Source: Cloacibacterium caeni
GTDB taxonomy: Bacteria; Bacteroidota; Bacteroidia; Flavobacteriales; Weeksellaceae
Length of the DNA: 64,000 nucleotides
NCBI RefSeq assembly: GCF_907163125.1
Contig: NZ_OU015319.1
Location: 806,001 to 870,000, forward strand
Reading direction: 5' to 3'
The notes below the pieces were generated by a model. The model worked only from the letters and a program-made list of their open reading frames with translations, had not been told where the DNA came from and did no database searches. The stretch's first letter is position 1. Every line of letters begins with the position of its first letter. Of this stretch, positions 15,041 through 32,997 are shown piece after piece. Made by a program: the position numbers and the translations under genes.

Positions 15041-15111
15041 CAACCTGTTAATCAACCTCTGACGAAAGCCGTGAACGTTGTTTAGCTTTCCAAAAATTAT
15101 TTTTATAAAAA

Positions 15112-19175: not shown

Positions 19176-22100
19176 ATGGAGAAGGTAACAACTAATTTTG
19201 CCTATGAAGAAACACTAAAATACTTCAAAGGAGACGATTTAGCAGCCAGAGTTTGGGTAACCAAATATGCATTGAAAGATTCTGATGGGAATATTTATGA
19301 AAAAACACCTGATGATATGCACCAAAGAATTGCTTCTGAGGTTGCGAGAATAGAAAAAAAATATCCCAATCCGCTTTCCGAAGCAGAAATTTTTGATCTA
19401 ATAAAAGACTTTAAATACATTATTCCGCAAGGAAGTCCGATGACGGGAATTGGGAATAATTTTCAGATTGCTTCGCTTTCAAACTGCTTTGTAATCGGCA
19501 ACGGAAATGATAGCGATTCTTACGGAAGCATTATGAAAATAGACGAAGAGCAAGTTCAACTCATGAAGCGTAGAGGTGGAGTTGGTCACGATTTGTCATA
19601 CATTCGTCCAAAAGGTTCTGCGGTAAAGAATTCTGCGCTTACTTCTACAGGTTTAGCGCCGTTTATGGAGCGTTATTCTAATTCTACCAGGGAAGTAGCC
19701 CAAGATGGAAGAAGAGGCGCTTTAATGCTTTCTGTGTCGATAAATCATCCCGATTCTGAAGATTTTATCAATGCTAAATTAGAGCAAGGAAAAGTAACAG
19801 GAGCGAATATTTCTGTGAAAATAGATGATGAATTTATGAAAGCGGTAAAAACTAATAGTGAATATCAACAGAAATATCCTATTTACAGCAAGAATCCTAA
19901 ATATACCAAGACTATTTTTGCAGAAGATTTATGGAAAAAAATAGTCTATAACGCTTGGAAATCAGCAGAACCAGGAATTCTATTCTGGGATACGATTATC
20001 AGAGAGTCTATTCCAGATTGTTATGCAGATTTAGGTTTTGAAACGGTTTCTACCAATCCTTGTCTTACTGGTGATACTTGGATTATGACTAAAAATGGTG
20101 CGAAAAGAATTTATGATTTGGTAGGTAAAAAATATTTTGCTTGGGTTGATGGAAATCTTTTTCCTTCTACAGATGAAGGATTTTTTAAGACAGGTTTTAA
20201 ACCTATTTTTGAAATAACAACTAAGAGAGGTTTGAAACTAAAAGGAACTGATAATCATTTAATTAAGAAACTTAATTCTAAAAAAAGACAAGAAAAAACC
20301 TTTGATTGGATAGAACTAGGGAACCTGAAAAAAGGCGATAAAATTAGCATCAATAATAATAGAAATGTAAAGAATTTTGACGGTGATTTTAAACTCAATT
20401 TTGAGAAAGGTTGGTTAGTTGGTAATTTATTAGGAGACGGAACATTTGATGGTAATACTGCGATTTTAAGATTTTGGGGAGAAAATAATGCTCAAATGAA
20501 AGAAATTGCGGTAAAATATTTAGAAAATAATGTAAAACATAGAAGCGATTTAGGTTCTGGAAATGATAAAAAAATTATCAGCATTAAATCTAAAGGACTT
20601 TATGAATTGTGTGAAGAAATTAATTTTGATAAGAGCAAAAAAATTTCTGATGCGATAGAAAAAACTGATTATCAATTTTATAGAGGTTTTTTTAGTGGTT
20701 GGTTTGATGCAGATGGAACTGTCTTAAATAATACAGAAAAAGGAATTTCGGTGAGATTGTCTTCTTCAGATTTATATAATTTAGAAATTGCTCAAAGAAT
20801 GCTTTTGAGGTTAGGTATTTTTTCTACCGTTTCAAAATTAAGAAGAGAAAGTCAAGAAAAACTTTTACCAGACGGAAAAGGAGGATTGAAATCTTACAAA
20901 ATTAAAGACCAGCACGAATTGATTATTTCAAAAGATAATGTATTGATTTTCAGAGATTTAATAAATTTTAAAGACGAATTTAAAAAATCTAAATTAGAAA
21001 CTGCAATTGCTTCTCTTAACAAAAGAGGTTTGTACAAAGAAACTTTTTTAGATGAAGTTTTAGATATAAAATATTGTGGCGAAGAAGAAGTTTTTGACTG
21101 CCAAATTATGGGTGCTAATGAATTTGATGCCAATGGTATTAATGTTCATAATTGTGGCGAAATCCCGCTTTGTCCTTATGATTCTTGTAGATTAATTGCG
21201 ATAAATCTTTATTCTTACGTAGAAAATCCATTTACCAAAAAAGCGAAATTCAATTTTGAATTATTCAAAAAACATGCAGCTTATGCACAAAGAATGATGG
21301 ATGACATCATCGATTTGGAAATGGAGAAAATTGATGCAATTTTGGCAAAAATTGAAAAAGACCCAGAAAACGAAGAAATAAAACATACTGAAAAACAACT
21401 TTGGGAAAAAATCCGCAAGAAAACTCTTCAAGGAAGAAGAACAGGAGTAGGAATTACGGCAGAAGGTGATATGTTGGCGGCTTTAAATTTAAGATATGGA
21501 AGCAAGGAAGCCAATGAGTTTTCAGTAGAAGTTCATAAAACGTTGGCTCTTTCTGCGTATCGTTCTTCGGTAGAAATGGCGAAAGAAAGAGGTGCTTTTG
21601 AAGTTTTTAATGCAGAAAAAGAAAAAAACAACCCTTTCATTTTGAGATTAAAAGAAGCAGATGAAAATCTGTATCAAGATATGGTGAAATATGGCAGAAG
21701 AAATATCGCTTTATTAACCATTGCACCAACTGGAAGTACCAGTTTGATGTCTCAGACTACTTCAGGAATTGAACCGGTATTTTTGCCTGTTTACAAGCGT
21801 AGGAGAAAGGTAAATCCTAATGATAAAGATGTAAGAGTAGATTTTGTAGATGAAGTGGGAGATTCTTGGGAAGAGTACATTGTTTTCCATCATCATTTTA
21901 AAACTTGGATGGAAGTGAATGGTTATGATATTTCTAAAAATTATTCCAACGAAGAAATTCAAGATTTAATCGAGAAATCTCCTTACTACAAGGCTACTTC
22001 TAATGATATTGATTGGCTCAGCAAAGTGGAAATGCAAGGTGCCATTCAAAAATGGGTAGATCATTCTATTTCGGTGACCATTAACATTCCGAATGAAGCC

Positions 22101-22808
22101 ACAGAAGAATTGGTGAATCAACTTTACATCAAAGCTTGGGAAGTGGGTTGCAAAGGAGTTACGGTTTACAGAGATGGTTCTAGAAGTGGAGTTTTGGTAG
22201 CTGCTGATGATAAAAAGGAAGAAAAAGATGAGGAAGAAGCTACTTCATCTTTAGAAGCTTTCCCTACTAAAAGACCTCAGATTTTAGAAGCTGATGTGGT
22301 GAGATTCCAAAATAATAAAGAAAAATGGATTGCTTTTGTAGGTTTGGTTAATGGTAGACCTTACGAAATTTTTACAGGTTTGGCAGATGATGAAGAAGGA
22401 ATTATGCTTCCACGTTGGGTAAATGAAGGTTTGATCATTAAAAACAGAGACGAAAACGGTGTTTCTAGATATGATTTCCAATTCAAAAATTTAAGAGGGT
22501 ATAAAACTACTATTGAAGGACTTTCTCATAAATTTAATCCAGAATTCTGGAATTATGCGAAACTCATTTCAGGAACTTTAAGACACGGAATGCCAATTGA
22601 AAACGTAGTAGAATTAATCAACAGATTAGAGCTAGATTCTGAATCTATCAATACTTGGAAAGCGGGAGTTGCAAGAGCTTTAAAGCGCTATATTCCTGAT
22701 GGAACTGAAGTTGACGGACAAAAATGCAGCAATTGTGGTTCTGACCAAGTGGTTTATCAAGAAGGTTGCCTGATTTGTAAAAATTGTGGAAATTCTAAAT
22801 GTGGATAA
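19176..22808 (+). CDS. nrdJ: adenosylcobalamin-dependent (class II) ribonucleotide reductase precursor with intein
   Basis: 1210 residues from the ATG at 19176; removal of the 364-residue intein leaves an 846-residue enzyme. The host protein has the class II pattern: SLSNCFVIGN near residue 100, the NPCGEIPL active-site loop (split by the intein), LTIAPTGSTSLMSQTTSGIEP, and a C-terminal zinc-ribbon-like tail CSNCGSDQVVYQEGCLICKNCGNSKCG. Class II enzymes reduce ribonucleotides to deoxyribonucleotides using adenosylcobalamin to make the radical, with or without oxygen. The gene is monocistronic. No nrdA, nrdB or nrdD is in the window, so whether this is the only reductase cannot be told. Confidence 0.93.
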   Translation: MEKVTTNFAYEETLKYFKGDDLAARVWVTKYALKDSDGNIYEKTPDDMHQRIASEVARIEKKYPNPLSEAEIFDLIKDFKYIIPQGSPMTGIGNNFQIASLSNCFVIGNGNDSDSYGSIMKIDEEQVQLMKRRGGVGHDLSYIRPKGSAVKNSALTSTGLAPFMERYSNSTREVAQDGRRGALMLSVSINHPDSEDFINAKLEQGKVTGANISVKIDDEFMKAVKTNSEYQQKYPIYSKNPKYTKTIFAEDLWKKIVYNAWKSAEPGILFWDTIIRESIPDCYADLGFETVSTNPCLTGDTWIMTKNGAKRIYDLVGKKYFAWVDGNLFPSTDEGFFKTGFKPIFEITTKRGLKLKGTDNHLIKKLNSKKRQEKTFDWIELGNLKKGDKISINNNRNVKNFDGDFKLNFEKGWLVGNLLGDGTFDGNTAILRFWGENNAQMKEIAVKYLENNVKHRSDLGSGNDKKIISIKSKGLYELCEEINFDKSKKISDAIEKTDYQFYRGFFSGWFDADGTVLNNTEKGISVRLSSSDLYNLEIAQRMLLRLGIFSTVSKLRRESQEKLLPDGKGGLKSYKIKDQHELIISKDNVLIFRDLINFKDEFKKSKLETAIASLNKRGLYKETFLDEVLDIKYCGEEEVFDCQIMGANEFDANGINVHNCGEIPLCPYDSCRLIAINLYSYVENPFTKKAKFNFELFKKHAAYAQRMMDDIIDLEMEKIDAILAKIEKDPENEEIKHTEKQLWEKIRKKTLQGRRTGVGITAEGDMLAALNLRYGSKEANEFSVEVHKTLALSAYRSSVEMAKERGAFEVFNAEKEKNNPFILRLKEADENLYQDMVKYGRRNIALLTIAPTGSTSLMSQTTSGIEPVFLPVYKRRRKVNPNDKDVRVDFVDEVGDSWEEYIVFHHHFKTWMEVNGYDISKNYSNEEIQDLIEKSPYYKATSNDIDWLSKVEMQGAIQKWVDHSISVTINIPNEATEELVNQLYIKAWEVGCKGVTVYRDGSRSGVLVAADDKKEEKDEEEATSSLEAFPTKRPQILEADVVRFQNNKEKWIAFVGLVNGRPYEIFTGLADDEEGIMLPRWVNEGLIIKNRDENGVSRYDFQFKNLRGYKTTIEGLSHKFNPEFWNYAKLISGTLRHGMPIENVVELINRLELDSESINTWKAGVARALKRYIPDGTEVDGQKCSNCGSDQVVYQEGCLICKNCGNSKCG
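20061..21152 (+). other. LAGLIDADG intein inserted in the ribonucleotide reductase
   Basis: In-frame insertion of 364 residues (precursor residues 296-659). Block A starts with Cys1 (CLTGDTWIMTKNG). Block B has the T-x-x-H type motif GTDNHLI (His at intein residue 66). Two LAGLIDADG-type motifs are WLVGNLLGDGTF (about 118-129) and FFSGWFDADGTV (about 211-222), both keeping their acidic residues. Block F is VFDCQIMGANEF and block G ends INVHN, then C as the +1 residue. All residues needed for splicing are present, and the endonuclease could be active. The flanks join as NP-CGEIPL, the catalytic loop of the host enzyme. The intein region looks more AT-rich than the exteins. Confidence 0.95.
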
Positions 22809-32835: not shown

Positions 32836-32871
32836 TTTTCTGAAAAATTTCAAAAAAAGACATAAAAAAAT

Positions 32872-32964
32872 GGCAAGCTACCTAAATCACACCGCTACGA
32901 CCGATTACCTTTGCTGCGTTCCCACCCTGGAGGATTCTCAGGAGCTGGTTGTTTAGGACTTGCC
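32872..32964 (-). ncRNA. ffs: signal recognition particle RNA, small bacterial type
   Basis: On the minus strand the RNA starts GGCAAGTCCTAAA and ends TTTAGGTAGCTTGCC, which pair to close one long hairpin. The apical part reads CCAGGGTG-GGAA-CGCAGCAAAGG: a GGAA tetraloop with the asymmetric and symmetric internal loops that bind Ffh. The RNA is followed by a T run (rho-independent end) and is preceded by a good promoter. The exact ends may differ by a few nucleotides. It targets ribosomes making membrane proteins to the translocon. Confidence 0.9.
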
Positions 32965-32968
32965 GTTG

Positions 32969-32997
32969 CAAAAATACTGAATTAATTTAAAATTCAA
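32969..32997 (-). promoter_or_regulatory. promoter of the SRP RNA
   Basis: Minus strand TTTG (32997-32994), a 17-nt spacer and TATTTTTG (32976-32969), ending 4 nt before the first paired base of the RNA. Confidence 0.65.

Follow-up and report, generated by a model that had tools for sequence, protein, structure and literature searches.

A putative mobile class 1 intein at the radical cysteine position of the class II ribonucleotide reductase of Cloacibacterium caeni

The nrdJ gene of Cloacibacterium caeni, encoding a class II ribonucleotide reductase (RNR), carries a 364-codon insert directly before the codon for the cysteine that aligns with the radical-bearing residue of the enzyme. The insert has the sequence features of a class 1 intein with a LAGLIDADG endonuclease domain. 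The insert is missing from all of the congeners examined, and the same junction is occupied in reductases of phages, archaea and several bacterial phyla. We consider it very probable that this is a mobile, selfish class 1 intein with a LAGLIDADG homing endonuclease that was acquired horizontally by this one species.

The intein and its host gene

The nrdJ frame lies at positions 19176-22808 (+) of the window (the whole stretch of 64,000 nucleotides that was analysed), is open and in frame throughout, and encodes 1210 residues; a longer frame with a TTG start runs from 19131 (+). The complete frame scores 553 bits against TIGR02504 (NrdJ_Z, adenosylcobalamin-dependent reductase), for which the cut-off is 399.95, with both halves matched in order, and its NPCGE loop aligns with that of Thermotoga NrdJ (1xje), which by homology makes it a class II NrdJ interrupted by an intein. 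Subtracting 364 from 1210 leaves 846 residues for spliced NrdJ, the length given in a sequence-only reading of this DNA, provided that translation starts at the ATG at 19176; in the six congeners NrdJ begins with MEK followed by V, T or I. The window also contains an L19-Flavobacteria ribosomal leader at 15053-15080 (+) and a Bacteroidales small SRP RNA at 32867-32972 (-).

The junctions (marked here by a slash) read STNP/CLTGDT upstream and NVHN/CGEIPL downstream, and the splicing residues are all present: Cys1, T63-x-x-H66 in block B, Asp346 in block F, H363-N364 at the C-terminal end and Cys at +1. Together with the empty alleles in homologues (see below), these are the features of a class 1 intein. 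Searched alone against Pfam, the insert matches Intein_splicing (PF14890) at 1.9e-11, over its cut-off, and LAGLIDADG_3 (PF14528) at 1.3e-17 across intein residues 206-301. Both LAGLIDADG helices carry acidic residues (Asp126 in motif 1, Asp216 and Asp218 in motif 2; Table 1). The earlier reading of an intein starting with Cys, ending in His-Asn and retaining its splicing and LAGLIDADG motifs is borne out.

Table 1. Positions of the nrdJ exteins, the intein and its motifs in the window
Feature	Position	Strand	Basis
nrdJ N-extein, 295 aa, ending in STNP	19176..20060	+	Open frame; TIGR02504; 94-96% identity to six congeners
Predicted class 1 intein, 364 aa	20061..21152	+	PF14890; AlphaFold2 model; Foldseek; absence in 6/6 congeners
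Predicted homing endonuclease domain core with two LAGLIDADG motifs	20409..20723	+	Motif positions; PF14528; I-DmoI matches by profile and fold
LAGLIDADG motif 1 (GDG), GWLVGNLLGDGTF	20409-20447 (intein residues 117-129)	+	Motif positions
LAGLIDADG motif 2 (DADG), GFFSGWFDADGTV	20685-20723 (intein residues 209-221)	+	Motif positions
+1 Cys codon: predicted nucleophile for splicing and the NrdJ radical Cys as judged by alignment	21153..21155	+	1xje alignment; 63/63 junctions
nrdJ C-extein, 551 aa, with Cys-rich tail and stop	21153..22808	+	Open frame; 93-98% identity to six congeners

These residues are well conserved in an alignment of the C. caeni intein with 18 of its better-matching relatives, picked from 157 loci found by a junction pattern (see below). 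Cys1, His66 and Asn364 are invariant among the 19 members, Thr63 is kept in 18, and Asp346 and His363 in 17 each. Among the acidic residues of the endonuclease, Asp126 is retained by 15/19 members and Asp218 by 16/19. An AlphaFold2 model of the intein (pLDDT 92.7, pTM 0.91) has an endonuclease fold, and its best solved matches by Foldseek are the endonuclease-bearing inteins TliVMA, PI-PfuI (1dq3), PhoVMA and PI-SceI, for which the TM-score by query is 0.58-0.65 and the rmsd is large, as for domains at differing angles. I-DmoI is matched both in fold and by profile. PI-PfuI, an archaeal RNR intein of 454 aa, shares the splicing domain and the LAGLIDADG endonuclease fold (Foldseek E 2.1e-16, TM 0.63 by query, rmsd 7.2) at 18% identity, a likeness of fold.

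Intein-free alleles in the genus and family

All seven genomes of the genus have nrdJ, and in the six others (6/6) the insert is absent, with matches to the C. caeni protein ending at residue 296 and restarting at 660. In four of these six the two NrdJ halves are 96% and 98% identical in protein sequence to those of C. caeni. Across a sample of 296 genomes of the family there are 53 full-length nrdJ genes in our listing, that of C. caeni included, a count that leaves out fragmentary genes in G051 and G081 and the shorter, 35%-identical reductase-like frames of 372-579 aa in G223, G230, G246 and G280. The other 52 full-length frames are all of 847-876 aa and are without the insert. Comparison with intein-free homologues, which had been proposed as a check, thus indicates that the insert is not a normal NrdJ domain. 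A single-sequence search with the intein across the order matched 2/395 genomes including its own, the other at only E 4.4e-4, and its own genome was matched just once. For homing tests, the allele with the intein can conveniently be paired with the empty, closely similar alleles of the congeners.

The +1 cysteine and the catalytic loop

In the phmmer alignment with Thermotoga NrdJ (1xje/1xjk), anchored by the CGEI shared within PCGEI, the +1 Cys is matched to chain position 322. Cys322 is the radical-bearing residue of that enzyme, with the active-site Asn and Glu on either side, and the proposal that the +1 nucleophile is the equivalent of the class II radical cysteine holds. Because of this geometry unspliced NrdJ is predicted to be inactive, and splicing should be required for NrdJ. 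The intein would excise itself from the NrdJ precursor after translation, by an acyl shift at Cys1, transesterification to the +1 Cys and cyclisation of Asn364, and excision would restore the NP-CGE catalytic loop. The residue at -1 is Pro, as it also is in the Mth RIR1 mini-intein, which resides in an RNR and is without an endonuclease domain. Since Pro at -1 slows splicing of this related intein, efficient splicing of the nrdJ intein is not guaranteed.

A recurrent insertion site in ribonucleotide reductases

The C. caeni insert has the form N-(P or L)/C at its upstream end and /C-x-E at its downstream end, with the +1 residue at the radical Cys position, and this arrangement recurs in other reductases. 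A phage collection contains 26 records that match the intein at E <= 1e-5, a number of which lie in genes for helicases or tape-measure proteins. We inspected five, and in four (SPbeta, a Staphylococcus SPbeta-like phage, a 595 kb phage record and Thermus phage G20c) the intein is directly before the Cys of N(L or P)C-x-E in a class I or class II reductase; in the fifth (MT835482) the reductase junction is absent at the match. One example is the SPbeta bnrdE intein (NC_001884, annotated "encodes putative intein"), which is at the equivalent point, SNL/C...GN/CSE, before the Cys of N-L-C-x-E, and shares the LAGLIDADG_3 and Intein_splicing domains, although its host is a class I NrdE rather than a class II NrdJ, its identity to the C. 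caeni intein is 24.9% over intein residues 1-360, and it ends in Gly-Asn instead of His-Asn. A second example is the putative intein in NrdJm of Thermus phage G20c, also a class II RNR but of the monomeric subclass, with the site as in C. caeni (NP/CLTGDT...GN/CAE) and 24.8% identity by tblastn over intein residues 1-290 (80% of the query); a passage of a published account states that the g20c sequence 'contains a likely intein' (PMC6459318).

A search by junction pattern, which fixes Cys1 and leaves +1 free, gave 56 genome loci and 101 viral loci (157 in total). Reductase exteins were recognised by BLAST with C. caeni NrdJ in 95 of these (36 genome, 59 viral), and the remaining 62, unsorted, may be chance matches, proteins of another kind, or reductases that are cut short or too divergent for recognition by BLAST. 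In every one of the 63 junctions where the C-extein start could be placed (60 distinct inteins) the +1 residue is Cys. Several NrdJ inteins at the NP/C site of C. caeni are of similar length (362-368 aa) and are 38-43% identical to its intein, namely those of a Heimdallarchaeota MAG (L056), a Thermoflexales MAG (L066), genome G617 (L192) and the viral contigs L125, L153, L115 and L159, whereas their exteins are 28-42% identical to those of C. caeni in the alignable parts or are hardly alignable. Both LAGLIDADG motifs are present in the five aligned relatives L056, L066, L115, L125 and L159. We also built a profile from the 19 aligned inteins; though free of any junction pattern, it derives from inteins of the radical-Cys site. 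It matched 35/395 genomes of the phylum at E <= 1e-20, C. caeni included, and NP/C...HN/C is found in all 19 of the best-scoring among the 34 others, one locus ending right at the Cys. Scans of viral_contigs and genome_contigs for degenerate peptides of the intein alone found no relatives; this reflects a limit of the exact-peptide method, as the junction pattern and profile searches found many.

By these sequence comparisons the radical-Cys junction is a recurrent RNR intein site, used in phages, in archaea and in several bacterial phyla, and in both class I and class II enzymes. The position before the radical cysteine stands as the sequence-only reading had it; what is not supported is that the insertion is unusual or special to C. 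caeni, given its occurrence in SPbeta, G20c and 19/19 of the best-scoring phylum genomes. The site may be favoured because its DNA is highly conserved, the +1 nucleophile is ready-made, and sloppy loss would kill the enzyme. Passages of reviews place RNR among the usual intein hosts and catalytic sites among those favoured by inteins (PMC5874633, PMC7765530), and RNRdb reported about 80 curated inteins by 2009 (PMC2795772). In a survey of phage genomes, 16 of the 128 that bear RNR had split RNR genes; the same survey states that inteins, unlike introns, had been reported very rarely in phage RNRs (PMC3653736). None of the literature passages found names the radical Cys as the +1 residue, which the SPbeta record itself shows, and no title listed in the literature searches names the individual C. 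caeni intein. Alone this intein changes little; it appears to be one more arrival, so far confined to one species, in a widespread reductase intein family, and the wider point is the reuse of the catalytic-Cys site across two RNR classes and across cells and phages.

The last intein residue among the 63 placed junctions is Asn in 43, Gln in 19 and Gly in one. Gln is an uncommon C-terminal residue for an intein, yet ends 19/63 at this site, and a review passage describes splicing with C-terminal Gln as slow or efficient depending on the intein (PMC4031507). The single Gly is implied by the C-extein alignment of a Levyibacteriota NrdJ intein (L068; SRG/CGEQ), in which the junction is possibly misplaced.

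We also note the sequence ANPCFTGDT near the C-terminal end of ~350 aa proteins in Celeribacter and other genomes (L035, L036, L043, L049, L057, L067, L074, L078, L079, L081, L084, L086 and L088, with L036 cut by the locus edge). These have no BLAST match to the reductase or intein of C. caeni and may contain another Hint-like domain.

Splicing and dNTP supply

The C. caeni genome encodes an intein-free class I pair side by side, NrdB of 324 aa (PF00268, 4.6e-69) and NrdA of 551 aa (PF02867, 2.6e-108). The suggestion that the dNTP supply of the cell is tied to splicing is therefore not sustained, as NrdAB would bypass the intein. Class I RNR enzymes generally need O2, and a class III NrdD was not found in this genome, so splicing might become important where the class I pair is unable to function, perhaps without oxygen. 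Control of nrdJ by a cobalamin riboswitch was considered and rejected: none is present in the window at the Rfam gathering threshold, and the only one found in the genome (L191, G000:C1:1230232-1230438) precedes an ORF that by eye looks like a TonB receptor, which fits B12 uptake.

We regard as unlikely a reading in which splicing is conditional on redox state, metal, B12 or temperature and thereby controls dNTP synthesis by the class II enzyme. It gains from the identity of the +1 Cys and the radical Cys position, since oxidation of this one thiol would block splicing and catalysis alike, from the Pro at -1, and from the possibility that NrdJ is the sole working reductase without oxygen. According to a 2014 review, no evidence had come to light that conditional splicing plays a physiologically relevant role (PMC4031507); a later paper reports stress-responsive splicing of another intein, in a mycobacterial helicase (PMC6195587). 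However, the intein-free NrdAB leaves dNTP supply as a whole ungated, all six congeners manage without the insert and hence without such a switch, and very different hosts, as well as phages, carry inteins at this site, as a homing preference predicts. Very unlikely, in our estimation, is the more specific proposal that the NP/C-GE site is a redox lock, with precursor building up in oxidising conditions, under which class I RNR works, and maturing in anoxia, where only the B12 enzyme can act, and the intein domesticated as an oxygen-matched switch. That the insertion is degenerate and does not splice, leaving nrdJ as a pseudogene that the cell tolerates since class I RNR is sufficient, would fit the presence of a second reductase and the finding of full-length nrdJ in only 53/296 genomes of the family sample, but the splicing residues tested are all there, the frame is intact and the C-extein protein remains 93-98% identical to the six congeners, and we give this explanation hardly any credence. 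A mobile intein that is a selfish element would account for these observations, and a host regulatory function need not be assumed.

Origin and spread of the intein

The nearest relatives found for the intein are in Heimdallarchaeota (43%), a viral contig (40%), Thermoflexales (38%) and G617 of the same phylum (38%). The exteins of C. caeni are 93-98% identical to those of its intein-free congeners, whereas the reductases that host the closest inteins are 28-42% identical where they can be aligned, or are hardly alignable, and this placement of the nearest kin in far more distant reductases argues for horizontal movement of the intein. Among the twelve loci compared, the most similar exteins outside the family are those of a Thermoanaerobaculia MAG NrdJ (68 and 62%), which has an intein at the same point with no significant match to that of C. 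caeni. In the intein tree the C. caeni sequence is inside a 12-row clade (support 100/99) that holds Heimdallarchaeota, Chloroflexota, Bacillota, cyanobacterial, same-phylum (G617) and viral inteins; within the clade its pairing with a viral contig is weakly supported (92/73), and the sequence was flagged for an unusual composition. The intein has a GC3 of 0.168 and the extein one of 0.262.

Taken together, these observations suggest that the intein either arrived horizontally after the split from the sampled congeners or was lost in each of them, and arrival is the simpler explanation. The endonuclease is probably active, with spread of the intein by homing. Our searches found no close sister intein that would point to the donor.

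Divergence from the nearer congeners is elevated in the 150 bp to each side of the insert, but the flanks give no clear sign of co-conversion, as the intein-free G001 shares the downstream tract. Here, at window positions 21188-21260 (about +35 to +107 past the junction; compared with L018-L023), the flank is mosaic, with C. caeni and G001 sharing variants that resemble G003 and are unlike G002, G005 and G006. This could be a footprint of recombination or of lost homing.
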